A stretch of 64,000 nucleotides of DNA from Tranzscheliella williamsii (lineage: Eukaryota > Basidiomycota > Ustilaginomycetes > Ustilaginales > Ustilaginaceae): NCBI GenBank assembly GCA_023212725.1, contig JALBYF010000013.1, positions 186,001 to 250,000 on the forward strand. The letters run 5' to 3'. The translations under genes and the position numbers were made by a program. Of the stretch, positions 1,952-47,100 are shown piece after piece (the first letter of the stretch is position 1; every line of letters begins with the position of its first letter). Under the pieces are notes generated by a model. The model saw nothing but the letters and a program-made list of their open reading frames with translations. It was not told the origin of the DNA and ran no database searches.

Positions 1952-3133
1952 TTAACTGCTGACGACGCCTCTGCGCTGGTTGGGTACAACAGTAACTCCC
2001 GAGGTGAGCAGGGAGTGAAGGACCTTGTCCGTGCGCTCGCGGCCGTTGCTAAGGAGCGCGGCGGCGCGGGCGAGGACGTCGGAGGAGGCGAGTTCGATCT
2101 TGTCGGGGACGAGCGGGTCGGCTCTGGTGGGGCCGATGTTGAGCAGGAGGAGGGGGGTGTGGTGGAGGGCGGCGTGCTTGACGAGACGAAAGGCGGAGTA
2201 GGTGGCGAGGCTGGTGCCGACGAAGAGAATTGCGTTGGCGTTGTCGACCATGCGGAACGAGTGGTCGCGCAGGCGCGCGGGCACTGACTCGCCAAAGAAG
2301 ACCACGGCGGGCTTCAGCACGCCGCCGCAGGCGGGGCAGGCCGGGTAGCGAAACGTCGAGTAGTCGACGTTGTGTAGCTCCACGTCGCCGTCGGGGTTGG
2401 TCCTGGGCTCGCGGCCGGTGGTGGCGAGCTCGGCCTGCAGCTCCGCCCAGGCCGGATTGAGCCGCGTCAGTTCGTCCTGGAATGCGCCGCGCGAGCCGCG
2501 GAAGCCGCAGCCGTGCGCGTAGCTGGCGCCCGTCGGCGTATAGTCGTCGCGCGCCGCGCGCAGCGGCTTCGCCTCGGCCGTCAGCGCATCGTACAGCGCC
2601 GCGTCCACCGGCCCCGCCCCGCCCGCGCGCCACCCCTCCGGACTGGCAACACACACTACGTGGCGCAGCGTTCCATGCAGTTCCAAAATCGTGCTCGCAG
2701 CCACGCTCGCCGACGGCGTCGCCGCATGGTGCAGGCTGTCCACATTCTGCGTGATCAGCTCCGGCACATACCCAAGCCGCTGCAGCGCCGCGATGCTAAA
2801 GTGGGTCCGGTTCGGCCGCGCAGTCCGCACCGGCGGAAAGCCCAGGTAGGAACGCGAAAAATAACGCTGCCGCGCAAGATGCCCCTTGGCCGACACATCG
2901 ATAAACTCGTGGTAGAAGATCGGCCGGTACGTGGTGTGCACCGTGTAGTGCCCGTTCTCCCCGCGGTACGGCGCGATGCCCGAGTCCACCGACGCCCCCG
3001 CCCCCGTCATGATCAGCCCCTTGCCCTTGGCAGACGAGAGGAACTCGGCAACCCGGCTCGCCGCCGCCTCGAGCGTGTACTCGACCACAGCGCGCGGCGC
3101 CTGCTTCGGGATCGACGGAATCGAGATCCTCAT
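1952..3133 (-). CDS. SIRT4-like sirtuin, NAD+-dependent protein deacylase/ADP-ribosyltransferase
   Basis: The 393-residue frame starts at an ATG at 3133. It shows the sirtuin signature set: the NAD-binding TGAGASVDSGIAPYRG at residues 43-58, TQNVDSLHH at 128-136, the catalytic His in LHGT (His153), FFGES near 279-283 and GTSLATYSAFR. The order and the LNPAW and CGGVLKPAVVFFGE motifs fit class II (SIRT4-like) sirtuins, which usually act in mitochondria. A targeting peptide is not obvious here. Zinc ligands appear to be C161, C209, C266 and C269; the first pair is split by an in-frame insertion of roughly 45 residues. A transposon sits 246 bp upstream of the start codon and may have displaced promoter sequence. 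Confidence 0.85.
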   Translation of the reverse strand: MRISIPSIPKQAPRAVVEYTLEAAASRVAEFLSSAKGKGLIMTGAGASVDSGIAPYRGENGHYTVHTTYRPIFYHEFIDVSAKGHLARQRYFSRSYLGFPPVRTARPNRTHFSIAALQRLGYVPELITQNVDSLHHAATPSASVAASTILELHGTLRHVVCVASPEGWRAGGAGPVDAALYDALTAEAKPLRAARDDYTPTGASYAHGCGFRGSRGAFQDELTRLNPAWAELQAELATTGREPRTNPDGDVELHNVDYSTFRYPACPACGGVLKPAVVFFGESVPARLRDHSFRMVDNANAILFVGTSLATYSAFRLVKHAALHHTPLLLLNIGPTRADPLVPDKIELASSDVLARAAALLSNGRERTDKVLHSLLTSGVTVVPNQRRGVVSS

Positions 3134-3371: not shown

Positions 3372-3379
3372 TAATTGGC
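3372..3379. repeat. Left target site duplication (TAATTGGC) of the MULE
   Basis: The 8-mer TAATTGGC directly abuts the outer end of the left terminal inverted repeat. It is repeated exactly at 11753-11760 outside the right repeat. Mutator-superfamily elements make 8-11 bp target duplications. Confidence 0.93.
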
Positions 3380-3459
3380 GGGAAATGATTCATCGACCCG
3401 CTAACTCGCTAACCCGACCCGGATTCCCGATTAGCGATCGCGCGTGATTCAATCTTACA
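3380..3459 (+). repeat. Left terminal inverted repeat of the MULE, 80 bp
   Basis: All 80 bases match the reverse complement of 11673-11752. One mismatch follows at 3460, then four more matching bases. The repeat is rich in short motifs such as GCTAACTCGCTAACCCG and contains CGATCGCGCG. Confidence 0.95.
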
Positions 3460-3763
3460 ACGAACAACCTGCTTTCGTTCAGCAGTCAATCAACTCCCAC
3501 CTTCCAGTATGTCATTGACGTAACATTGCCTTTGGTTGCGAGCTACGGAACAGCAATACAAGTGTGAGAATGACTAGAAGCGCCAGAGGAGCCAAGCAAG
3601 AAGCTTGATGAGGTGGACGAGCAGGACAAGCAGGATATGAACGATGTGCAGGACGAGCGCTATCACAAGCTGGACAAGGCGGAAAAGCGCTGCCAGCAGC
3701 ATGACGTACGAGGGTTAGAAGAGCGCGGCGAGGATAGCGGAGCGATGATAGCTGGGCGAGGAG

Positions 3764-3915
3764 AGCTCAGCTAGGAGAGCTCAGCTAGGAGAGCTCAGCG
3801 AGGAGAGGTCCGCGAGGTGAGGTCGGCGAGGATAGCTCAGCGACAAAGCTCAGCGAGGAGAGCTCAGCGACAAAGCTCAGCGAGGAGAGCTCAGCGACAA
3901 AGCTCAGCGAGGAGA
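3764..3915. repeat. GA-rich tandem repeats inside the MULE (14-bp and 27-bp units)
   Basis: Three 14-bp units of the form AGCTCAGCTAGGAG occur at 3764-3805. A 27-bp unit then repeats about 2.8 times at 3841-3915, each unit containing two AGCTCAGCGA cores. Looser GAGGAGG-type copies continue to about 4020. No open frame of note crosses the array. It lies between the left TIR and the stop of the first cargo gene. Confidence 0.85.
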
Positions 3916-4136
3916 GGTCGGTCAGCGAGGATAGGGAGGCGAGCGGGGTGAGGAGGTCGGCGTTGAAGAGCTGGAGGAGGTTGGCGTTGTAGAGCTCGGT
4001 GAGGAGGTTGGAGAGCGGAGGAGAGCGACACGCAGGTTGGCGGTGCGCTAGGAGCTTGCTAGCGATACTGCGGATCGGCGAGCGTGATGCAGATGGTTGA
4101 CGGCAATGCGCATTTGTTTGCGTTTAGAGACACGAG

Positions 4137-5758
4137 CTAGCGAAGGGGGGCAACACTGTCGTATGATCCTCCACGAAAGCCAACAGCGTTCCAGATGATG
4201 TCTATGAACTGTCGTTCATAGAAGCGAAGCTGGAGATCTCCGCTTGCTGTTGTATGATTGTAGTGTCGCGCAACACGATGAACAAGATCTTGAAGTGCCA
4301 CCACCGCTGTGTGAGCGAGAGACTTGTCGTCGGGGTCCGGCAGATTGGTGTAGAAGGATTCGGGCACTTGCAGGCTGACTGACAAGTCAGCATGCGGAGA
4401 CGGCTCTAGCAACGATTGCCCGGAGCCCAGTGGCACAGTCCCAAAGCTGGAAATCCTTCCAGGGACATGATGAGGATGGTTGAGCTGATCTCCTGACCGC
4501 GGAAAGCGGTTGCCTGACTGTTGGCCTAATCTTGCACTTGTTCTTGATTGCGTCCTTATCCGAGTAGGGGATGGTGTGCTTGAAGCGCTGCTGGCAGTGT
4601 TGTCCGCGGCAGTGGTGTCAACGTCTGGTGTTGGCGAGCTTTGGCGGTTAGGTTGGGCCAAGCCATGCTCTGCGCCAACTGCTGCCGTCACTGCAGGCAC
4701 CCTAGGCCCCATCTTGTCATACCTGCGGTGTCCATATACGTAGACGTTGCCATATATTTGTCGGTCGGCTTCATCCATTGAGAGACCATCAACATCTACC
4801 AGCCTCCACCACCGCGATACCCGCTCAGGCCTGAACCACTCCTTGAGATGGCATTGTATACCGTTGCGAGTCCTAGAGGAGCAGTTTTGGCAACGTTCCA
4901 TAAAGCGGCTTGGATCCACACCAGGGCACTCGTCACCATGCTGTATGCAGACAATACATGGTGTTCCATGCCGGTCCCATATCAGTTGCCGGGCCTCTAC
5001 GTAAGATTGTCGCCGAATGGACTCTCTGGAGTCGGTGTGTTGAGCTTCAGTTGCTGGTGTGGGCAGCACTGCGGACGCGGATGGTGTTGCTGGCGTTGGT
5101 GTTGCTGCTGGTAAGGGTGTTGTTGCTGATACGGACGGCGTTGCTGGTGTTGCTGCTGGTGTTGATGTTGCTGCTGGTATGTGTGTTGCTGCTGGTGCGG
5201 ACGGCGCTGCTAGTGTTGGGTGAGAGCTTGTCAACAGAGCCACAATCTCCTCATATTCGAACTGCCTTTAGACTCACAGTGTTCTGCTGCTGTTCGAAGA
5301 CGTCGTGTCTTGTGTACATGGTGTCGACCACTTCCAGGACTGGATGCATATGGACTTGATCTTGCTCTCCGGCGGCGGAGCATGCTTCGATCATGCTGAA
5401 GACTGATAGACGAAGCGTTGGTTCTTGTACTTGAACTGTAGCTCACCTCTGTTGCCGGACTGTTGACTACGCTTGTTGCAGGAACACTTGAGCCGGTAAC
5501 AAGCCTCGGCCCATCAACGGGTGTGACGACACCAGAGCTACACTCACGCTGGTCCTGTGTTGAAGTATTGTCGCTCTGGTCGGCAGCATCCTGACGAAGC
5601 AAGGTATCTTCGTGGTCGTCGTCCTCGTCGCCAGAGCTTTGACTGTCGACCTCTCCTGATCTGCTTGCAGCTTGCATCCCTCCAGTATCCGTTGAGCCAG
5701 ACTCCGAGGACTGTCGTAGGGGCAGCCGTATGACGATGTTGGAGCATGTGCTGCCCAT
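4137..5758 (-). CDS. MULE cargo protein 1, Zn2Cys6-like cluster, spliced
   Basis: The model joins exon 5758-5278 and exon 5209-4137, with a 68-nt intron (GTGAGT...CACTAG, phase 1), giving 517 residues. An alternative upstream ATG lies at 5911. The N-terminal exon is Ser/Asp-rich and ends in a basic tract (MLRRRRARS onward). The second exon begins with Ala/Thr/Pro repeats and then a conserved block of about 100 residues containing C-X2-C-X6-C-X11-C-X2-C-X9-C. This matches the fungal Zn2Cys6 binuclear cluster except that the last spacing is one longer than usual. The C-terminal block (RFYERQFIDIIWNAVGFRGG) is also shared with cargo gene 2. DNA binding is inferred, and no known family was recognised. 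Confidence 0.65.
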
Positions 5759-6193
5759 TTCTATGGACAAGACGGGATGTTGATGGAGCAGAGTGAGGAC
5801 ACGGAGATGTAAGACAAAGCGCGTAAATGCAGGGTCTGAATGCGGATCAAAATGCGGGACAAAAGACGTGTGAAATATCCGCCCATGCTTTGTGTCACTG
5901 CAACGAATCATTCACTTAGATAGCACAACCGCAGTTCGAGGGTAGAGGCACTTGGATGAGAACGAGTGCTAGCCGTACATTGATGTTGCCTGGCGCTTGC
6001 TCATGATCTTGTCTGCTGTGCTTGGTATGGTTACAGTACAGTATGACACGACACCACAGGAACAATGTTGTGGGATACGGAGACTTTCAATCACTCAATG
6101 ACTGCATGGTTTGACGCTGTCGGTTGATCTTGGGTTAACCTCGCTTGTATACAGGATTGCGGGGGGTGAACAAAAGGCTTGCTTGGCACTCAC

Positions 6194-6331
6194 GGGAAGG
6201 CTGCCCATGCACTCTGTCAGGATCCCGACTAGACCTAGGATGCCACCCAGCTCCTGAGCTACTGCGGTTTGAGCGTCGGTGCTCAAGATAATTGCTCTTG
6301 ATGCGATCTCCTGATTTCGATGACAGTATCG
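6194..6331 (-). CDS. Possible exon of a third MULE cargo gene
   Basis: On the - strand, an open segment of 46 codons lies between an acceptor-like GTCTAG (6332-6337) and a donor GTGAGT (starting at 6193). It encodes a helix-like stretch including QTAVAQELGGILGLVGIL. It could belong to the gene modelled at 6665-7299 or to a 5' extension of cargo gene 1. I could not connect it in frame with certainty. Confidence 0.3.
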
Positions 6332-6664
6332 CTAGACAGATGCAGGAGCAAGAGAGCGATAGTCTGCACAAGATCGTCGGCGATAGTCAGGCTGATCGAG
6401 TTTTCGCCTCACATCTGTAGAAGCGTCGTGTTTCCTTTAGCTTGAGGAGCAAAGCAGATGAGACCTGGTTGTAAGAAAGAGTCGTGGGTTTGGGTTGCCC
6501 AAAGAATCTCTCAGTTGGATCGTGATGGCAGCGCAGGTCTTGAACAGATGTTCCACCGGGTCACCATCAAGCGCTGTTAACTCGTGAGGCAACGGTTGAA
6601 GAGCTGAAAGCAAAGCATCAAAGCGGAGAAAGCGATCGAAGGCCCGGCGATGCGATTCTTTCCT

Positions 6665-7299
6665 TTATCTCTGCCGTCCCCAGACCTTCGATCGGCCAGC
6701 ATCGCCGTCGAGTGATCGCCGTGTTCGACCCGTTAGGGTTGTATTGAAGTCTGTGCACAAGTTCACGTTGAGCCAAAGCAGGATCACTTGAGTGATGGCT
6801 CGCATCGTTTTGAGCTCTTCTTCTTCGTTTAAACCTATGTCTATGCCGATGATCCTGGGAAATTGGGAAGAAGCCTGTAATGGAAGCTGAAGCTTCGGTG
6901 CAACAATTCGGAGAGCTTTATCAACCATACCGAAGACCTCCTGATCGGGTTTCGAAAGATGGCATCAGCGTCTACAATCTTCTGAATTCGACAAACCTCT
7001 TGTTACTCACTTGGATGTGCCCGAAGCAGAGCTCACGCCACGCAAGTAGGGTGATGCATTGCGTCGTTGAGTGAAGCTGTTGTGGCCCAAGAGAGTTGGT
7101 CTTCCAAGCGTAAGGTTTCCTTGTGGCTTCTCTGACCATCTGTTGTGATTGAAGTGCGGCCACCAGATCGGGCATGATGACAGTTTTAAGGGCCATACCC
7201 GCTGCCACCATAACTTGAAGAAGACAGAACTCGTGACTAGAGTTGGTGTAGGCCCGCATGAATAGCTGCTCCAATCCGCTCGTATATGTGCGCTCTGTG
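6665..7299 (-). CDS. Possible third MULE cargo gene, exons incomplete
   Basis: Two segments on the - strand look coding and splice in frame. One runs from an acceptor near 7299 to 7011; the other is 6940-6665, ending at a stop. They are separated by a 70-nt intron, 7010-6941 (GTGAGT...GATCAG, phase 0). The product has an alternating hydrophobic pattern (for example VMVAAGMALKTVIMPDLV and RIIGIDIGLNEEEELK) but no motif I recognise. A further donor-acceptor pair upstream (GTAAGT near 7344, CTCACAG near 7300) suggests a 5' exon, but its phase did not give a clean join. No start codon is assigned. A decayed gene is also possible. Confidence 0.38.
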
Positions 7300-7459
7300 A
7301 GTATCTCTCCCTACGTTCCAGGCAACCTTGGCTCTTACTTACAGTTCGTTATACGACCAAATTGAGGAGCGGAAGCGAATTGTAGGCTAACTCACCAGAT
7401 CATCGTTGTTACTTGTTATGTACACTGACCAGCGACGGAGCTGTTGAGTTAGGGTAGCG

Positions 7460-8982
7460 CTACTCAAGCGGGACGACGCTGTCGTACGAACCACCCCTGA
7501 AGCCTGCGGCCTTCCAGATGGTGTCGATGAATTGCCGTTCGTAGAATCGGATCTGATGTGCTTGACTTGCTCTGCTATGGTCATAGCGTTTTGCAAGCAA
7601 GTGAAGAAGAGCTTGAAGTGCCTCAATTGCTGTGTGAGCGAAGACCTTTTCATCAGGGATAGGGAGGTTTATGTAACAGGACTCGGGTGCTTGCAGGGTT
7701 ACGGCGAGGTCAGCATAAGGAGACACGTGCAGTACTCGATCATTGGCGTTGCTTGACGACGCCGCAACACTAGACTGTCTTGCGCTGGGACGAAGAGGCT
7801 GTGCCTGAGTGTTGCTTGATGTAGCCCTTGCTTGCGACCTAGCCTGCACTCTTGCTTGTGCTCGTGTCTGGACAGGTGAAAGGAGAGGTGAAGCAGTGCT
7901 AGCGCTGCTTGAACTGCCATTTGAGATTGCCGGAAGCATGCTTGTATTGCTGGAAAGAACAGGAGGGTTTGTCCTCAGCGCGTTCGAGTCCATCTTGTCA
8001 TATCGATGATGACCAAAGACGTAGACTCTTCCGTAGACGACCCTGTCGGCCTCATCCATAGAAAAGCCCTCCACGTCCACCAACCTCCACCAGTGCGACA
8101 CCCGTTTGGCCTTGAACCATTCCTTGAGATGGCATGCTGCGCCGTTGCGTGTCCTTGAAGAGCAGTTTTGGCAACGTTCCATGAACCGCTTTGGGTCGAT
8201 TCCGGGGCAGTGATCCCCATGGCGTTCGCAGACCGCGCAATGTGTCCCATGCCGATCCCAAATCAACTGACGAGCTCGTGCACATGACTGTTGTCGAGCG
8301 CTATTCCCACCCGGCGATGACAGTTGAGCATTGCTGGCTTGTGGCGGTGGCGAAGGAGTTGGCGGTGAAGGAATCCGGGACGTGTCTGCTGGTGCCGCTG
8401 CAGTCAAACTTGATGGCGTTGTTCGGGCGGTCAACTGCAGTGCTGTTGGGTCCGTCAACTGCTGCGGCACTGGAGTTGCCCTTGCGGTCGTCAACTGCAG
8501 CGATGTCGTGTCTGCCAACTGCAGCGGCTGTGAAAGCCCTAGTTCAGAGCTTGGCGTGACGCCTGCATCAAGAAGAGCAACAGATGCTGTGAGTATCATC
8601 GTTGGTTGTCATGCACAAAGGATGCGCAACTACTTACGACAGCTTTCTGATCTTGAACGGCCCGGCGGCCTGCCTCTGCCGCATCGACCAAATCCAGGAC
8701 GTAAGTGCTTACGCTTTGGACGGCCTCGGCAAACTGATACGCTTCCAACATCCGTGTCAGCATCGCTTGATGAGGAATCAACTCTTGAACGAACTGTGGA
8801 GGCGACGGTGCTTGCGCTTGCTGAATGCTCACTGTTAGGGAGCATGCCGTTATTGCTGCTGGAGGCTGCGTCAGGGTTTGCTCAGGGTTAGCTCAGCGAC
8901 CAGCAACCTACGACAGCAGCTCGACTTGCTTACCTGAAGTTGGGCCGCTATCTTCCGGTGTGTTGGTATGTTGGATTAGCAT
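7460..8982 (-). CDS. MULE cargo protein 2, Zn2Cys6-like cluster, paralogue of cargo protein 1
   Basis: The best model has three exons: 8982-8934, 8865-8638 and 8586-7460, with introns of 68 and 51 nt, both phase 1, giving 467 residues. The N-terminus is Ser-rich and then basic (RGRPKRKHLRPGFG), followed by a Thr/Gln/Leu-rich repeat and the conserved block with C-X2-C-X6-C-X11-C-X2-C-X9-C, the same spacing as cargo 1. About three quarters of that block is identical by eye (for example RFMERCQNCSSRTRNG in both). The C-terminal block RFYERQFIDTIWKAAGFRGG also matches. Both paralogues have a basic tract just before a phase-1 intron, which supports this model. A competing frame at 8640-8832 looks helical but has no start and needs a different acceptor. 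Confidence 0.62.
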
Positions 8983-9583
8983 ATTGTCCTGGAGGAGAAC
9001 ATGCGTGGTTGTATGGTGGAGTTAGGGGAGGTGATGGTGGTGCGAAAGGAAACGCTTAATGAATGTACAAGCAGCTAAGCACAATGGCGGAAGGAAAGAC
9101 AACGAAGCATTACGGATGGCAGAGGTGCGGAAACAAAGCAAAATGCAGGGTCCAAATGTGTGTCGTGAAGTTGCGACAAAAAGGGACCAAGCATGGGGTA
9201 TGCTTGCTATACTGTTCCTGCACATGTGAGCTCCATGATCGTGCTCTTTACGCCTGTCCTAGCATCTCACTTCCGCTTGTACATGTTGAGGTCTGTCACC
9301 AGACTGGGCTCGAGTATGGCAGGTCGCTTGAGCGACGGATCTAAAAGCAGGTTGCTCAAGCGCTGTATTAAAAGAGGTCGTCGCTCGTGCGTTGTTCACC
9401 AGGACATCAACATGTCGTCTGTCAACCACTCTTCTCCACGGCTGAGCTGCCATCACACCTGCCAGAAACAAACACTAGCTATTGCACAACACGCCCCAGT
9501 AGGTAAACATAATCTAATTTCTTGACTTGTACGCACTGGTGCTGAATGGCTAGCTCAACACCGTAGAAACCTCTACAAACGAT
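8983..9583. other. MULE internal spacer between cargo gene 2 and the transposase
   Basis: About 600 bases separate the 5' end of cargo gene 2 from the stop codon of the transposase gene. Only short frames without family resemblance occur. It should hold the cargo gene 2 promoter and the transposase 3' end. Confidence 0.5.
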
Positions 9584-11560
9584 TCAGGCTGGCGGTTGCG
9601 GGCATGTTCGAACATTGTGTCCCGGTCGCCTGCACCGTCCACAAATGCGGGGTGCCCTAGCACAAGCGATTTCTACTACCTCATGCAATGATAAGGACCG
9701 TTGTGTAGATGACTCAAATCTTTGTTGTGACTGTTGCGATGAAAATGAACCAAGCGAACCCAACGGTCTTCCTCTTGGTCTTGCAGTGGCTGGAGTGTGT
9801 ATTGATACGCTGGTGTGGGACAATTCAACCAAACGGTTTCTCATTCTTTCCTGTTGATGTGGTGGGAGTGTCTCATATGTTGACTGTACTTGTTGGAGAA
9901 GCGGCTGCAGTGCATTGGAAGATTCCTCTTGAGCGTTGTTGCACGTTGAGAGCAGGTGCCGTACCTCAACCAGATGCCACTGCTCATGGAAGTGTTGCAA
10001 ATCAAGAGGCTCACCGGCCTCCAGGAGCTCCCGGATGGCATGGCGACAAGGAAGACCCATTGTTGTCGTGAAGGCTTGAGTACAGCGGTCGTCCAACGGT
10101 AGCATCCCTTGAGCCTGAAGGTACTGCTTGTGCACCAGATGTAGTGCATACTGTGAAACTCTACCATTGACCTTGCTGTACAAAGCTGCTCGGCTGAATC
10201 GAATCCCAATCTTCTGTCTTTCATCTCTGACCGAGTGTTCATATTCATGTGCTCGATTCCTTATTGACAGAGCAAAGGCCTTTAAGACATCCCGTAGGTC
10301 TTTCTTAGAGGAGTGCAGATATGACTTCATTGCTGCATGCTGCCCTTCAGCCCGTGATGAAGTAGCATTGCCAAAATGCCGGGCTGTGTTCGTCCAGGCC
10401 TTTGCAAACTTCTGATGGTACGGAAGCCAGGTCCCAGTCAGATATGTAAGCACTTTGTGCTTGCTCAGATAACTCTCTTGCATCGCTACCCATTGGCTCC
10501 AGAACATCTGTTGATTGCTTGCAAATACCAAGTTGTTCCACGTTGCAAGAAAACTCTCCCAATCCTTGGATGAGAAATGCTGCCGACAATTTGCCATGAT
10601 GTTCTTGTTGACATGCCACAAGCACAACAAATGCTTGCAGTCTGGGAACGTGGTTGCAATTGCATTGATCAACGCTAACTCACGGTCTGTGGTGATGCAA
10701 ACTGGCTGTGTTCGGCCTGAAAAGATCTTTGCTACTTCTTGTAAGGCCCACACATAGCTTGCATTTTCTTCGTTCATCATGAACACCACTGCTACGGTGA
10801 AAGATTTGTTGAAACTTGTCATTCCGACAACGTGAAGCATGGGCAGGCGATAGCGATTTGTCTTGTATGTCGAGTCCATGATGAGACTGTATGGAAACCG
10901 TTGAGCTAGTTCAATTGATTTAGGATGGGCTGCATAGAGATGGGTCACCTGATCGTCAGTGTTGGCCTTGTAAGCGGTGATATATCCAGCCTGCTTATGC
11001 TCCTCCAGAAGCACAAGCATGATAGGGCGTTGATCTATCTCTGCGGCCTTGATCCTTGCCTTTGCATTGTAGATGTCCCGATTGATGAATGGGGAGTTTG
11101 GGTTGTCTTCCTTGAGCGCGGCAACAATATGTTTGGGGGCCGTACCAGCGTTTGTAAGCCTTGCTACCAGCTCTTGTTGCTCTACAGTAAGCCTTCGCGC
11201 GACTGGATGGCAAGACAGATGGCTGGAGAGCTCATGATTGTGCTCGGCATGAGCCACAGTAGCCCTCCATATACCTCCATTCAGCACACCCATAGACTTG
11301 CGGAGATGGACTGTGTACAAACAGCCAGTAAGCCGGCTCATCCGATTCCTTCGATGCTCTTGCTGATGGTCCTGCAGTAGCCCCCCTCTGTCGCACTTGA
11401 GGTCAACTTTGTACTTCTCTTGACCTGATGGGTCATGCGTACACCTCCTATTGGCCGATCTTCTGGTTACAAGAGCAAAGCCATGCGATAATGCGTGGTC
11501 TTGTGCAGCATTCTTGGCATCTTCCAGTGTTGAGAACGTGCTCTGCTCTAGTTCTGACAT
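9584..11560 (-). CDS. MULE-type transposase with FAR1-like N-terminus and zinc knuckle
   Basis: The 658-residue frame starts at the ATG at 11560; the open frame extends 13 codons further up to a TTG. The N-terminal 100 residues resemble a FAR1/WRKY-GCM1 DNA-binding region. The MULE catalytic domain follows. Likely DDE residues are the Asp in LIMDSTYKT (about 229), the Asp in CITTDRELAL (about 292) and the Glu in SSRAEGQHAAMK (about 405). CLWHVNKNI is the usual C/H-containing motif after the second Asp. A SWIM-like zinc motif (CTQAFTTTMGLPCRH) comes next. The C-terminus has a CCHC zinc knuckle, C-X2-C-X4-H-X4-C. It should cut and paste the element by binding its TIRs. No stop or frameshift interrupts it, so it is plausibly active. 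Confidence 0.93.
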   Translation of the reverse strand: MSELEQSTFSTLEDAKNAAQDHALSHGFALVTRRSANRRCTHDPSGQEKYKVDLKCDRGGLLQDHQQEHRRNRMSRLTGCLYTVHLRKSMGVLNGGIWRATVAHAEHNHELSSHLSCHPVARRLTVEQQELVARLTNAGTAPKHIVAALKEDNPNSPFINRDIYNAKARIKAAEIDQRPIMLVLLEEHKQAGYITAYKANTDDQVTHLYAAHPKSIELAQRFPYSLIMDSTYKTNRYRLPMLHVVGMTSFNKSFTVAVVFMMNEENASYVWALQEVAKIFSGRTQPVCITTDRELALINAIATTFPDCKHLLCLWHVNKNIMANCRQHFSSKDWESFLATWNNLVFASNQQMFWSQWVAMQESYLSKHKVLTYLTGTWLPYHQKFAKAWTNTARHFGNATSSRAEGQHAAMKSYLHSSKKDLRDVLKAFALSIRNRAHEYEHSVRDERQKIGIRFSRAALYSKVNGRVSQYALHLVHKQYLQAQGMLPLDDRCTQAFTTTMGLPCRHAIRELLEAGEPLDLQHFHEQWHLVEVRHLLSTCNNAQEESSNALQPLLQQVQSTYETLPPHQQERMRNRLVELSHTSVSIHTPATARPRGRPLGSLGSFSSQQSQQRFESSTQRSLSLHEVVEIACARAPRICGRCRRPGHNVRTCPQPPA

Positions 11561-11672
11561 TGCCGACAGGTAGTGATGGGTACAACAATAGGTGCTCAAT
11601 CATTGCTCAACAACATCACAGGCACTGCGTGTTGCGAGTCGTTCACACAATGCTACATGTTAGGGTATTCGC

Positions 11673-11752
11673 TGTAAGATTGAATCACGCGCGATCGCTA
11701 ATCGGGAATCCGGGTCGGGTTAGCGAGTTAGCGGGTCGATGAATCATTTCCC
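11673..11752 (-). repeat. Right terminal inverted repeat of the MULE, 80 bp
   Basis: This is an exact reverse-complement match of 3380-3459. Its inner end lies 112 bp upstream of the transposase ATG, so it probably contributes to the transposase promoter. Confidence 0.95.
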
Positions 11753-11760
11753 TAATTGGC
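11753..11760. repeat. Right target site duplication (TAATTGGC)
   Basis: This is an exact copy of 3372-3379 directly outside the right TIR, which marks the empty-site sequence before insertion. Confidence 0.93.
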
Positions 11761-11950: not shown

Positions 11951-14900
11951 TTACAAGAAAGTGTACAGCTCGTGTCGGCGGTAGTCGTTCCGCTCGTCCG
12001 AAAACTCGGAAAGGTCGGGGTAGTAAGCCACCATGGCGTCTTGCGAGCGCAGGTAGGTCGAGTTGTAGATCCGCACGTACACCTCGCGCACCTTTCGGGC
12101 GGGATGGAAGAGGCCCTGCAGGGTGTGGTTGAGGATCACGCCGGGACCGAGCGCCACCTCGAGGCTTTCGATCGCGGCCATCACGGAACCCAGCACATGC
12201 GGGCTGGTTTCGAAGATGTTCGGCCATATCAGATTGAGAAGATGCTGCATGCTCTCTTCGTGTCCCAGGCCGAACGTGCCGAGCGCGAGGTGGTACACGA
12301 TACTGGCCGCTGTCTGTCGGTGTACGTGGTCCCGGTCCGTCAGCGCATCATCCAGACATCCGATCACAGAGTAGACGTAGTCCTTGCTCATCTCGCCAAT
12401 GTATTCAAAGACCCAGCTGAGCGCCTTCAGACAGCCGTTTCGCACGTTCAGCTCCGGAGTACGGTACTCGTTCAGGATCGCCGGAACCGTCGTAAAAGGC
12501 CCACAAGTCTCGGCAACAATGGCAATGGCCACTGTCGAGCAGACTCGCGACTGTCGCTCTTGGACGCGCAGGTTGGTGAGCAATACCTGCAAGACATCCG
12601 AAGGACCGATCGCTCGCGCTATGTAGCCGAAACTGTTGACCGCGGCTCGGCGGATCGCCTTCTTGTGTGCCTTGAGCAGGTCCAGCAGCTCGAAACAGAT
12701 CCGCATCCACTCCCTCGGCGCGACAAACTCGGCACCATTATCTGCGATTCGTCCGATCAGGTTGATGCTGGCTTCCTGCACCTTCTCGTGGCGATTCCGC
12801 AGAATCGGCGTCATCCTCGGCAGGAGATCCTTGATCGGTGGATTCATCTGCGTCATGCCGACCACGTTTGCGATCGCGGTCTCGGCGCTGATAATCGAGG
12901 CGAGCGCTTCAGGGAACTCCTCGCCGAGCTGCTCAAAGAGCACCACGCCTAGCTTGGACAGCAGCGCATCTTCGCCACATTGCTTGATGACCAGCGCAAG
13001 CTTGGTGGTCAGATCCGCAGCTTGCTGCCGCGTCTTGGCATTCTTGTTGTTGAGACGCCACAAGATCGTCGACACAATCTGCGTCAAATACGGCTTCACC
13101 CGCATGCCTAATGCATTGACAACGGTACCCACTCCGTCTAGCATCACGTTGTCCTCGATGGTCTGCTCCTGGAACGCGTAGATGAGCCCATCAATCAGTT
13201 GTACTTCAAGGCGCTCGTCGATGTCCGCAGCCCCAAGGTTGGCAACCACCTTCTGAATGGTCTCCATGACCATCTTTCGGAAGGGCTCGCTTTCGTCTTT
13301 GAGCTCGTTGACGATGCGTGATACCACTTCGGAGACGCCCACCTTGTTGGCGAGCTCCACCGTCGTCTCCACCACTTGCTTGTAGTTCCTCCGGTCCAAA
13401 GCCATTCTCCGAACCCAAAAGTTTTTAAAGTACTCGGGAAGCATTTCGTCCCTGAGGAACGCGCCGGTGACGCCTTCAGTAGCCGCACATTGCTTGACCA
13501 CCTTGAGTACGATCTTTTTCATCTCCTCATCGGCACTTTGGAACTCCCGAATTAGCGTCGGCGTCACCTCCTTAACAAAGTAAAGTGTGCTGTCCGAATC
13601 CATAAGCGGGATGATGAAACCAATCGCCTTGAGGAATGCAGCAAGACCCTTACCGCGATGTTGTCGTATTCCGATCCAGAGCGGTTTGAGCACGTTCTCG
13701 AAACTTTCGATACCGTAGGGAGCAGCCGCCTCGGCTAGTGCCGCCAGCGCAAGTGCAGTCATCGTCTTGACCTTTTGCTGATCGTCTTCAAGGCCCTTTT
13801 CAACGCAATCGACAAGATTCCTAAGATGGGGCAGAACAGCGCAACCCATCATGATAGCGATCTGCTGGACGATTCGGATGCCGGTGTGTCTAGCTTGCCA
13901 GCTCTTTTTCGATCGGCAAACCGCCTTGAGGAAAGGGAGCAGAGCCGGGATACCAAGAGCCGAAGCAACCACCGAGAAGGCCCTAGCGGTCGTGTTGCGC
14001 ACATGTTCGTCTACGTGATCGATGTCTGGTCGCATGGTGCTGATCATGTGAGCCAAACCGGCGGCTTTGGACAAGTTGCTGATGATCTCGCGACCTTCGA
14101 CACGTGCATAGTAGTCCTCATCAATGAGCAGAGGCTCGATGACGACGAGAATCCTGTGCACATAGGGCCGCACTAAGTCGTCCAGTTTGTAGAGAATACG
14201 GTCGATCACCTTGACAAGTAAATGGCGTTCCTGATCTTCCAGCGTACGCTCCATCAAAAGGGGAAGGATCTTGTCGAACAGTGGTTTTGCCCCAAAGTCG
14301 CGGGCACGGTCTGTGATCTGACGGAGCGCGGTTTTCCGCATAGGGGGCGTACCATTCTTGATCTTGAGAAGGAGGCGCATGATCCTCCGTTCCTTCTGCT
14401 CTTCAGCAGACATTTCCGCCTCGTTCTCCTCGTTCAAAATCTTCTTGAAGAAGCTCTGATCTTCGGACTTGAAGAAGGCAAGTTGTCCCACACCCGGGAT
14501 GTCTGTAGGCAGATCGGGGATCATCTCCTCGAGCGCCGCCCGAGCTGCGCCTTCATCCTGCATCATGAATCCTCCACCGTGATCAGGGATTGGAGCTGAC
14601 ATGAGCTTCTGAGCGGGAGTCCGAATGGGAGCATAGTCTGGTGGTGGTTCTACGATCATGAATCCGTCGGTGGGAAGAATGGAATCGAGCTCCTCATCCG
14701 TCATGTAACGATTTCGCGGGTCCACAGCGAAGGAGATAGATCCTGTCGCTCCTACGGCTGCAAAAGATGCGCCATTGGCATGACTCGTTGCAGGTGTTGC
14801 TGCCGTTGGCGCTTGATCCCATCTGGACTTTTTCGAAGCACCTTGTATGGAGGCTGACGTTGCTTGATCCACCTGATCCACCTGATCCACCTGAGCCTCT

Positions 14901-15634
14901 GTCGGAGCTTCGTCCCACCTTGACCTCCTCTTCCTCGGTGCTAGCTCTGCAGATATGGGAGGCGATCCGGGGGCCTCCACAGCAGTTGGAGGTTCAGCTA
15001 CGTCCCATCTCCGCTTCCTCGTAGCTTTGGGTGTAGTATCGCCGTTTGGTGTTGCCGTGGAGCTGCTTTCCTTAATATCCCATTCGTCATAGCGGCCGTT
15101 GGCGTCGCGCTTCTCCTTCTCCTCCTTCTCCTTGGCCTCTATCAATCTGCGTATTCGCTCTTCCTCGCGTTCGAGCTCGGCCCTACGCATCCTATCTTTA
15201 TAGGTGTCCTCTTCCTCACCGGCTTCTCCGTTTTGCGCAAAGGGGTCAGCAGCCCTTTCGGCTCCAAGATCGCGGTTGAACCTTCGCAGGTGATAGTCGC
15301 TCTCTCGGGCCGCGATCTGCCTCGCCTCTGCTCTACCTCGGAGGGGATCTTCATCGTCGTCTGCAAACTCATGAAGCAGATGCTGGGGCGCAGAGTAGGC
15401 ATCAAGAGGATTCGAGGGCCGCCCATCCGAGGGCTGACTGCTGCGTTCGTCATCTGAGTCAGTGTCGTCCTGCGTGTTGTCCATTGGCAGCTCGCTAAGA
15501 TAATCGCTCTTTTTAGTGCCACCGTAGATCTCCTGGTCATATCCACCCGCCTTTCCCACAGCGATCTTGTCCTTCAGGGCGCTTACATTGCGAGCTTCCT
15601 GCAGCATCCGAATCTGCTCCGCTTCGTCTGCCAT
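11951..15634 (-). CDS. SF3B1: Splicing factor 3B subunit 1 (U2 snRNP, SAP155/Hsh155)
   Basis: This intronless frame of 1,227 residues begins at an ATG at 15634 and ends in the conserved [13 protein letters not shown] C-terminus. The N-terminal part has three Trp-containing U2AF-ligand motifs (RRWDVAEPP near 208, [10 protein letters not shown] near 238, KSRWDQAPT near 270). The C-terminal two thirds is the HEAT-repeat superhelix, with strongly conserved stretches such as [32 protein letters not shown] and FETSPHV. The Lys of VLKVVKQC, aligning with the human hotspot Lys700, is present. The protein binds the branch-site region within the U2 snRNP in the nucleus. A (Asp-Gln-Val) triplet repeat is coded by a small microsatellite near 14863-14895. 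The gene diverges from ESA1. Confidence 0.97.
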
Positions 15635-16280
15635 GGCGATCAGCTCCTTCTATGACGGAGGCACTGAGTCGTGGAAGGCAGTTGGACCGTAGTCCGTCAC
15701 AAAGCCTCGGCGGCTACTTCAAGACGTACCGTTTCAGTACGTCGTGCTTCACTGATACTGGTAGAAAAGCGTTAGCACCGTTATCAAGGTCGGTGGAAGC
15801 CGAAAAGGAAACACGTAGACCAGCGGTGTAGTGGTGGGCAAGGATATGTGGTGATGTCGACGAACGACGGATTGATTGTTCCATTGTTGCTGAGCCTGGC
15901 CACGAAAATCGATCTCGGCCTCCGGGTGACAGATCTACGCCCGATCCCGATCTACCTATATACGCCGAAACTTTTACCTTGCGCGCCATTTGGAGAGGGG
16001 AAATCAAATCAAACCTGCATGTAGCGGAGAGAATTGAGGCTGAGTTCTTGCGCACATATCGATCGCATGCTGGGCTGCAGCTTTCAGACGGCCGACAACC
16101 TATCCGCTACGGCATCAAGAGCCATACTTTGCCATTGGCAACGGCGACACGGTGTTTGGACGGCTTAGACGCGCAGCAAGGCATTTTGGCACCAGCGTGT
16201 GCGGTCTCACGGCAAGGCAGACCTTTCGTTTTGCCACCTAGTGGCTCTTTGCCATACGTCAAGCTGTGTCGGCATGCAAG
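15635..16280. promoter_or_regulatory. Shared divergent promoter region of SF3B1 and ESA1
   Basis: These 646 bases separate the start codons of two divergent essential genes. No coding frame of note occupies it. It should contain both core promoters. I see no clear TATA box or named operator. Confidence 0.55.
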
Positions 16281-44142: not shown

Positions 44143-47100
44143 CTAGGAAAACAGGGAGAAGACGTTTCTGCGCTTCTTTGGGGCGGTGGAGACGCCGGCG
44201 CGGCGGGAGGCGGGGAGGGCGCGCTGTTTGTGCGGGGGGGCGCTGGCGGGGGCGTCGTCGTCGGAGGAGGGGTCGGACTCGTCCGAGTCGGTGTCGCTCT
44301 CGGGGTGGCTGGCGTTGGTGGGCTGGCTGCTGGGGGTGGCGCCGGCGGAGCTCATTGGCGAGCTGGGCTGCGAGAGCTGACGCAGTGTCGAGGGGCGCAG
44401 GTCGGAGAGCCGGGTGAACGGCGTCGGCTTCTGGCTGGGCCCGTTGGTGCCGTTCGGCTGCGGCGTGAGGCCGCGCATGAACGGATTTGACGGCGCCGTC
44501 TGCGTCTCCCGTTTGCCCATCGTCGAGCCGCACGCCCCAGCAGCACCAGCAGCGCTCGGCGCACCCTCGTCCGTCTCCGCCTCGGAACCGGACGAGGCGC
44601 TCTCGTCTGAGCCCGCCGAACTTTCCGAAGACGACGACGAGGACCAGTCGTCCGCTTCCTGGGCCGCCGCCGGCACGCTGTCGCCGTTCTCCTGTGAGAC
44701 GCTACGCCTCGGTCCCGATGGCGCCGCTAGACTTGCATCGACCGTCTTGTCCGCGTCGCCGTCATCGTCACTATCGCTTTCCGTCTCCGAACCGTCGCTG
44801 TGCGAGTCCTCCGACGTGTCCGAGCTGGTGACCGATGCGGAACGGGAGCGGTTACTGGACGTATCGGGCACGGTCGAGGCCGCCTCGTTCTTCTTCGGCT
44901 CCTCGTTCTTCTTGGCCTTCTCGATCTTCGGCTCCTCGTTCTTCTTGGGCCTCTCGTTCTTCGGCTCCTCGTTCTTCCCGTTGCTTCTATGCTCGTCAAG
45001 CTGCTCGGTTGCTGCCTTGACCGACGAGATTGAAGTGGGCAGAGGGTCGACGTCCATATCATCCGAGGCGCGGGGGGCCGCGGACAGCATTGGACTCGTT
45101 GCCAGCTCGGCCTCGGAAGACTCCGAGGGGGCCCGAAGACCATTCCGCTGCTCCTTCTCGGCGGGGTCGGCACGGGCGGGAGAGGAAGGTACGACAACCA
45201 CTTGTGGCTCCTGGCTCGGAGCGGTCGCTTGCTCGGCGTGGGCAGCAGTCTTGGAACGAGTCCTACGCTGAGGCGCAGCGGTAGTCTTCGGCTGGGCCTT
45301 GCTGCCAACCACGACTCCGGATGGCGGAGGCAGGTCATTGCCTTGCTCTGCCTGCCCAGCTTTGTCCTCTCTGCCCGGCGCAGGTGGTGCTTCCTTCGCA
45401 GTGTTGGTTGCGTTCTTAGGAGGCCGGCCGCGCCTTTTCGGTGGCGCTGCACTGGTGGCATCTTGGCCTGACGGGGCCGGTGTAGCTGAGGCAGCTGGAG
45501 CCGTCTGGTAAGTCTGCGTTGCTGGAGCAGACACTTCGGTGTCCTGCGAGTCGGTTTGGCTGGCGCCAAACTGAATAGCTAGCCAGCTGTAGAGGACTCG
45601 CGAGGCATCTTTCTCCGCCTTCTTCTTGGTTCCTTTGTTTCTGTACATGGCCAAAAGGTCCAACATGGCTTGCGACCCCGCCTTCCAAACCTCACACCCC
45701 TCTTTGGGATGGTTCGGAGATTTGCCGCACACAATGCAACTTTCCGAACTCTGCGAAGCACTTTGCGAAGCCTCAGCTGTGGTTACCCGGCCTGTTTGCG
45801 CATCAGAGTTCTTTTCAGCCTGCGATGACTCATTGACTCCTTCCGTTCGAGACACGCCACCTTGCTGATTCGGAGCCTGGCGAGGTAGCTCAGCTGCCTC
45901 TGGCACTGCCTTTGTAGATGCTTGTTGAGAGCTGCTTGGCTCATCCCGTTCTTTGGTCGGCATGGTCATGGTAGCATCACTTTGCTGCCCGGTCGCAGTG
46001 TTTATATTGTTTTTTGCTGATTCTGGCCCAGACGATACGGAAGTAGCACCATCGGCTGCCGAGCCAGTCATTGAAGCATCTATCTTTGCCTTTTTGGCAG
46101 ACCTCTTCGAGGACTGCTGAGACGAGATTGGTGCAACAGGGGTATCTGCGGCCTCGGCCTGACCATCTCCCTGTGACTCTGCGGTATTCGGTGCTACCGT
46201 TGGCGTCTTTCGTGGACGTCCTCTCAGGCGTTTCAGAGGAACTTCTTCGATCTGCCCAGGCTTGGGACTTGTGGAATTCAGTTGGGCGGGCTCAGGTGCT
46301 GTTGCGGTGCTTCGGGTATTTATAGTCGTAGGGGGATTGAGCTCGGGAGTGCCCGTGTTTCTCTTCCTCTTGTTGGTTGCCCGTACGGTAGAAGCAGAGT
46401 TTGTTGCCGGTGTCATTTTGGGAGACGTGTTGACCTGAGGGTCCGTTGAAGGGATGACAGCCACCGCAGCTAATGAAGCCTCTGAGGCAGGTGGTGGCGC
46501 ACTGACGGGAGCTTGACTGTGATTTGTTTGCGGTGTCAAGGCTGTTGAAGTGGAGCTGGAAAAGAGTCTGTCAACGAGCGACGAGGCGCTCTCGCGCTGT
46601 TCCCAAGCGGTCAGCCCTTCTGCCTCCGGAGCTACTGTATCTGGGGCCTTTGAAAGCGCAGCGACTTTTGTTTGATCTGAAGTAGGATCTGAAGGTTGAC
46701 TAGGACCCGCAGCGCTTAGGTCATCGCCTCGACTTTCGCGACGAGGTTGATCCGAGGAGCTGACCGGTCGGACTGCTTGTTTCGCAGCGGTTGTGTTCGC
46801 CTTGGCCTTCACATTCTTCTTGGTGGGAGCGATAGAGGCAGGTTCGGGTTCTGGTAGGGTGCTTTGCGCCGGGTGTACGGTGGGAGCACCTTCCGTTCGT
46901 GATGCACCATCCTTCAATGATGTGCCTTTTGCAGATAGACTTGGGACCGGGACATCAACCACCGCTTCACGAGACATGCCCTGAGGAGCACTGGTCTGTG
47001 CAGCAGACGGACCGACTGATCGTCGCGCTTCGTGAAGAGGCTGGGCTGAGATCGGCTCATTTGGCCATTCTGCATTTGAGTCGGATTGCGGTGTGGTGAC

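Follow-up and report, generated by a model that had tools for sequence, protein, structure and literature searches.

Contig C35 of the Tranzscheliella williamsii assembly (18.18 Mb, 135 contigs) carries a Mutator-like element (MULE) that contains, next to its transposase gene, two paralogous accessory genes and a fragment of a host gene. It spans 8,373 bp (3380-11752) of the analysed window, i.e. of the whole 64,000-nt stretch C35:186001-250000, to which all positions given here without a contig name refer. We consider it probable that this is an autonomous-looking cut-and-paste element, the accessory proteins of which most likely serve as DNA-binding cofactors. The element most likely is autonomous and was recently active, and its sequence suggests that it may be active still.

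Long terminal inverted repeats (TIRs) occur in many members of the Mutator superfamily. An end-to-end comparison of the termini of the window MULE showed that 80 of 80 bases match and that the identity breaks off at base 81; with mismatches allowed, the TIR reaches 91 nt at 97%. The element is flanked on both sides by TAATTGGC, and 8 was the sole direct-repeat length found among lengths of 1-13. Target duplications in the Mutator superfamily are 8-11 bp long (PMC6446971). By all testable features, i.e. the DDE domain, the catalytic residues, the 8-bp duplication and the TIRs, the element is a MULE.

Counted from its first ATG, the transposase frame has 658 codons and no internal stop codon; between its bounding stops it measures 671 codons. 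Its product matches two Pfam families, the MULE transposase domain PF10551 (98.6 bits, cut-off 27.6) and, at the N-terminus, FAR1 (PF03101, 29.1 bits, cut-off 28.1). The protein was aligned with 21 database matches and two rows came from the T. williamsii genome itself. D229 and D292 are present in all 23 aligned rows and E405 in 18, the remaining five being gapped there. C313 and H316 are likewise present in 23 of 23 rows; a C-x2-H motif between the second D and the E belongs to the Mutator superfamily. The C-terminal part has a CCHC-like knuckle (zf-CCHC_2, 17.2 bits, under the cut-off of 27), and the SWIM-like motif is reduced: C505 and H507 are there, and its first half is down to one cysteine. 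An FAR1-type N-terminus, as found in the window transposase, occurs in half of the members of the sub-group of MULE group 35 that covers plants, Phytophthora, Puccinia and fungi (PMC6446971). A zinc finger of the CCHC, C2H2 or SWIM kind is a further feature of this sub-group. The preliminary description of this DNA had claimed inverted termini matching at 80 of 80 bases, identical flanking 8-mers, an unbroken 658-residue transposase and plausible D, D and E residues, all of which were borne out.

PF10551 was found twice in the assembly, and both candidates are MULEs: that of the window and a second, diverged one of 5,959 bp on contig C49 (C49:242211-248169, L032:2712-8670). The ends of the C49 MULE match at 83 of 83 TIR bases, with 7 mismatches over 91, and the element is flanked on both sides by a perfect 8-bp duplication, CTCCGCAG. 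Its transposase is 53% identical to that of the window MULE and contains one in-frame TGA; between the two transposases the proportion of differing sites is 0.30 for nonsynonymous (pN) and 0.78 for synonymous (pS) sites. An accessory homologue lies downstream of the C49 transposase, with order and strand as in the window MULE; it shares 41% identity with accessory B when the whole frame is compared, and 69% in a core region.

The bounds of accessory genes A and B in the window MULE are provisional, as start codons and splice sites are unsettled. Gene A has an open frame of 376 codons (4137-5267) with a six-cysteine core and a conserved C-terminal part, its upstream exon(s) probably lying within 5300-5911. 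Gene B has an open frame of 382 codons (7460-8608), also with the six-cysteine core, and upstream exon(s) probably within 8640-8990. The two frames are paralogues, 50% identical and in register at a spacing of 3,281 bp. Six cysteines with gaps of 2, 6, 11, 2 and 9 are present in all three accessory proteins (A, B and that of C49), and so is a conserved C-terminal stretch.

Over the 95 codons of the core, the three pairwise comparisons gave pN of 0.14-0.21 against pS of 0.70-0.77, which indicates that the core was kept by selection in both MULEs. The ratio of nonsynonymous to synonymous substitution rates (dN/dS) was 0.12 in the one comparison for which it could be computed. Between A and B, pN is 0.14 in the core and 0.57 in the linker, where dN/dS is 0.52. 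The accessory B frame has six matches in the genome, three in the two MULEs and three that are short C-terminal fragments, and no free-standing host gene related to it is among them. Because a homologue stands in the same order beside the C49 transposase and purifying selection acts on the core, the accessory genes look element-intrinsic rather than like random passengers.

The cysteine spacing of these proteins resembles that of a zinc cluster. The Zn2Cys6 cluster has the spacing C-x2-C-x6-C-x5-12-C-x2-C-x6-8-C, and the last gap of 9 in all three accessory proteins is one residue beyond this pattern. In searches with HMMER filters that discard most weak matches, PF00172 (Zn2Cys6) matched neither A nor B at an E limit of 1, nor the C49 copy at a limit of 5. 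As the match is missing and the last gap is longer, we label the proteins zinc-cluster-like and do not claim Zn2Cys6 membership.

Several observations weigh against the interpretation of these proteins as DNA-binding cofactors of an autonomous element. The two MULEs in which transposase and accessory gene were seen to be linked come from one genome, and dN/dS of the core is limited to one comparison because synonymous sites are saturated in the other two of the three. The C-terminal part of the proteins is less conserved towards C49, with pN of 0.41-0.43 there and of 0.20 between A and B. No match at the cut-off or at E 0.01 was found in Pfam, NCBIfam or PDB (the best zinc-finger match, zf-CCCH_11, has E 0.75), so that DNA binding rests on the cysteine spacing. 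Structure models were unusable, with a mean pLDDT (predicted local distance difference test score) of 37 for the accessory open reading frame and 53 for the core alone, and the window MULE is the only copy assembled with its interior. In a search of a protein collection, none of 7,999 scored candidates passed for the accessory family and none of nine for the core alone, an absence that is weak evidence. A codon-usage scan, in which the open frame was the best of the three minus frames for the transposase, A and B, was dropped: its margins were small, it is circular to use the transposase's own table to score that gene, and the captured part of the element, too, looks coding-like in the scan.

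The captured stretch (6179-7389, minus strand) matches C66:33569-35009, with 91% identity in 716 alignment columns and 89% in a further 508, intron-like sequence included. The donor copy (L064, C66:32600-36200) has a 575-codon open frame, for which neither Pfam (E limit 0.5) nor PDB (E limit 1) gave a match. In the element both ends are cut, and there is a 224-bp deletion, small indels and an in-frame TAA in the frame of the upstream exon. An initial candidate, namely a third, spliced cargo gene, is ruled out by the host copy, the deletion, the indels and the stop. Fragment and host differ at 0.074 (19/256), 0.071 (18/254) and 0.103 (26/253) of first, second and third codon positions, respectively, and at 40 of 441 sites outside the frame; apart from a slight third-position excess, this pattern broadly fits a decaying copy, as would be expected. 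The divergence of about 8.5%, set against a target duplication and TIRs free of mutations, suggests that the capture predates the present insertion, although TIR identity by itself is no clock for a cut-and-paste element. A further match to the captured stretch, of 49 bp and 88%, lies on C79. Like a Pack-MULE, the window element has a host-gene fragment between MULE TIRs; unlike one, which would be non-autonomous and lack a transposase, it has an open transposase frame.

The TIR of the window MULE has at least 22 matches in the genome, two of which are its own ends. As expected, since repeats broke the assembly, 13 of the 22 are no more than 200 bp away from a contig end (C8, C20, C35, C42, C46, C62, C64, C76, C77, C118, C125, C131 and C135 end within such TIRs). 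The flanking 8-mers of these 13 form five pairs, i.e. C131/C20, C46/C135, C76/C125, C118/C42 and C62/C64, and C77, C8 and the start of C35 have no partner. When the letters in each 8-mer were shuffled 20,000 times, chance gave a mean of 0.09 pairs and a maximum of two. Each pair joins one left-type and one right-type end, one of the two being of the CCGGCC type and the other of the TCATG type. We read the five pairs, on the basis of these flanks, as probable complete two-ended insertions whose interiors are absent from the assembly, and the matching 8-mers permit the five contig pairs to be ordered.

Four matches, and C131 as well, are identical to the window TIR over its first 60 bp (60/60), and the sequence further inward diverges; these 60 bp are therefore the TIR core. 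A 382-bp copy with both ends is assembled at C48:377345-377726, with flanks TTAATAAT and TTAATTAT that agree at 7 of 8 positions, and is an internally deleted relative. The A+T content is 82% in 20 flanking 8-mers (one window end and C109 were left out of the 22 matches, and both sides of the paired insertions are included). A genome search with the window transposase recovered, besides the C49 MULE, further remnants on C92 and C4, so that both genome searches proposed in the preliminary description, with the TIR and with the transposase, found relatives. It had also held that TIR copies unrelated to this transposase would speak against a recent autonomous element. Copies without the transposase do exist; however, the C48 copy is an internal deletion that has both ends, and ten of the contig ends make up five two-ended insertions with unassembled interiors.

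The C49 MULE has a third gene near its opposite end, for which no family match above the cut-off was found and the first part of which seems to change frame. Pieces of this gene recur in short two-ended elements with C49-type TIRs on five contigs (Table 1), which form a second family of deletion derivatives. A fragment of a JGI protein (P0002) is 79% identical to the C49 transposase across 336 residues, and by this match the C49-type transposase family is evidently present outside this genome. Among the 21 database matches of the window transposase, the best that carry an organism name are MULE proteins of Carex (36%) and Rhynchospora (33-34%) (P0004, P0005, P0006), sedges that are hosts of smut fungi. 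Horizontal transfer with sedges is not claimed: 7 of the 20 inner branches of the transposase tree are well supported, and it leaves the link of Carex and Rhynchospora to the rows from this genome unsettled.

Table 1. Coordinates of the window MULE, its parts and neighbours, and of short elements related to the C49 MULE
Feature	Position	Strand	Remark
Host SIR2-family gene	1955..3133	-	window MULE lies about 0.25 kb upstream of the frame's first ATG
Left target-site duplication, TAATTGGC	3372..3379	.	from flank comparison
Left TIR, 80 bp, perfect	3380..3459	+	first 60 bp are the core common to other copies
Tandem array in left non-coding end	3720..3916	.	unit of about 14 bp, 14.3 copies
Accessory gene A	4137..5911	-	
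Captured host-gene fragment	6179..7389	-	
Accessory gene B	7460..8990	-	
MULE transposase	9584..11560	-	658 codons
Right TIR, 80 bp, perfect	11673..11752	-	
Right target-site duplication, TAATTGGC	11753..11760	.	
Host SF3B1 homologue, open frame	11951..15649	-	window MULE ends about 0.2 kb past its stop
Short C49-type element	C51:80860-81263		
Short C49-type element	C48:599395-599807		
Short C49-type element	C63:38774-39221		
Short C49-type element	C81:174888-175256		
Short C49-type element	C30:960-1692		

In a check for host origin, the stretches 8990-9590 and 5230-5960 of the window MULE matched only themselves in the genome. The stretch 3470-4140 had two short extra matches, one on C1 (78%) and one on C107 (71%); both correspond to about 3580-3703, close to the left tandem array but not within it. 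Elsewhere in the window, positions 1372-1470 gave an Rfam tRNA match of 48.1 bits, for which ARAGORN with its settings made no call, and a tandem repeat with a 33-bp unit (2.6 copies, 94%) lies at 44892-44977.

Other explanations of the element have to be weighed against this evidence. It seems rather unlikely that the window MULE is an inactive, tidy and silent relic, the copies that are or were active being others that lie hidden in assembly gaps. The C49 MULE, which combines perfect TIRs with a stop codon in its transposase, and the five two-ended insertions with interiors outside the assembly would fit such a relic, but the window MULE keeps its transposase frame and main accessory frames open, and its duplication carries no mutation. 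The preliminary description had called the element recent and perhaps still active; it is indeed a structurally intact MULE that has probably moved recently, but its matching TIRs do not prove a working copy, because the C49 MULE has an in-frame TGA in spite of its TIRs and perfect duplication. That each of the three blocks other than the transposase is a captured host gene, i.e. Pack-MULE cargo with no role in transposition, we regard as very improbable. MULEs are known to take up host gene fragments (PMC6446971) and one block is clearly captured; against this stand the genome matches of accessory B, which include no free-standing host gene, the homologue at the same place in the diverged C49 MULE and the purifying selection on the core. 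Of the several cargo genes that had been proposed, the extra blocks are present, but two look element-intrinsic and one is a decayed host-gene fragment.

As for the role of the accessory proteins, action as DNA-binding cofactors is our first choice and anti-silencing our second. Acting like VANC, the proteins would bind the non-coding tandem motifs of the element and keep it expressed, which we consider doubtful. The motifs bound by VANC evolve as tandem repeats (PMC5735166), and the window MULE has its 14-bp array in the non-coding part of its left end. C16 starts with a TIR, and inward of it there is a 7/14-bp array that differs in sequence, presumably within an element of which one end is seen. 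The combination of a conserved core with a fast-evolving linker also points in this direction. However, tandem arrays are common in transposon ends, and the C49 MULE has an accessory homologue yet just one minor tandem repeat. A further suggestion, which we think improbable, is a MULE lineage that would be a fungal counterpart of the VANC system, in which duplicated, partly fast-evolving, zinc-binding proteins of a new family might recognise tandem arrays or TIRs of the element and license integration or undo host silencing.

In the reading that we prefer, the DDE transposase would recognise the TIR, perhaps through the 60-bp core that the copies share, and would excise the element and reinsert it mostly where the DNA is rich in A+T, with duplications of 8 bp. 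It might also serve the internally deleted relatives. The two six-cysteine proteins would be element-owned accessory factors, working as cofactors on element DNA by analogy with the second gene of other MULEs, e.g. maize mudrB and Yarrowia mutB. The host-gene fragment is an earlier pick-up that is now decaying.

Extra genes known in MULEs are mudrB, mutB, vanB and vanC (PMC6446971). For mutB, a DNA-binding role is given in PMC6446971 and an unknown function in PMC5014426; PMC6446971 is itself inconsistent, placing mutB in the same orientation in its introduction and antisense in its table. The earlier statement that a transposase is all that most fungal MULEs carry is fair, but the Yarrowia lipolytica element Mutyl (mutA and mutB) is, like the window MULE, a fungal element with a transposase and a second gene (PMC6446971, PMC5014426). 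Mutyl differs in its 22-bp imperfect TIRs and 9-10-bp duplications (PMC2725143), against 80 bp, perfect, and 8 bp in the window MULE, which has, in addition, a captured fragment and a pair of accessory genes that are paralogues; mutB was compared by description only. Hop of Fusarium oxysporum shares the long perfect TIRs (99 bp), but it is 3,299 bp long, with one transposase gene described and a 9-bp duplication (PMC2725143, PMC5014426).

Among plant elements, MuDR of maize (mudrA and mudrB) also pairs a transposase with an accessory gene and has non-autonomous derivatives (PMC2725143); it differs in its 9-bp duplication, and MURB was compared with the window proteins by description only. VANDAL21/Hiun of Arabidopsis (VANA, VANB, VANC) has two extra genes and non-coding tandem repeats (PMC6446971, PMC5735166). 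In the window MULE, by comparison, the extra genes are mutually paralogous and encode a six-cysteine core, VANC again being compared by description only. Among fungal DNA transposons, hAT is known to capture host genes (PMC6710886). In Pack-MULEs and in hAT transduplication (histone H3, Pseudocercospora), terminal repeats likewise enclose a host fragment together with intron-like sequence (PMC6710886), whereas the fragment described here, seen in one copy, lies inside an otherwise autonomous-looking MULE. Titles and abstract openings of the literature matches listed mention no smut MULE with accessory genes and no fungal Pack-MULE. As far as these matches go, three things look new: the accessory family, its duplication within a single element, and its link to the transposase in both of the diverged MULEs.

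The window and C49 MULEs address an open point, which is the function of MULE accessory genes such as mudrB and mutB. Two diverged MULEs that share a selected accessory gene within one small genome constitute a compact test of integration versus excision versus escape from silencing. In addition, for gene capture by an autonomous-looking fungal MULE, the donor, the element copy and the deletion derivatives are all found in one 18-Mb genome.

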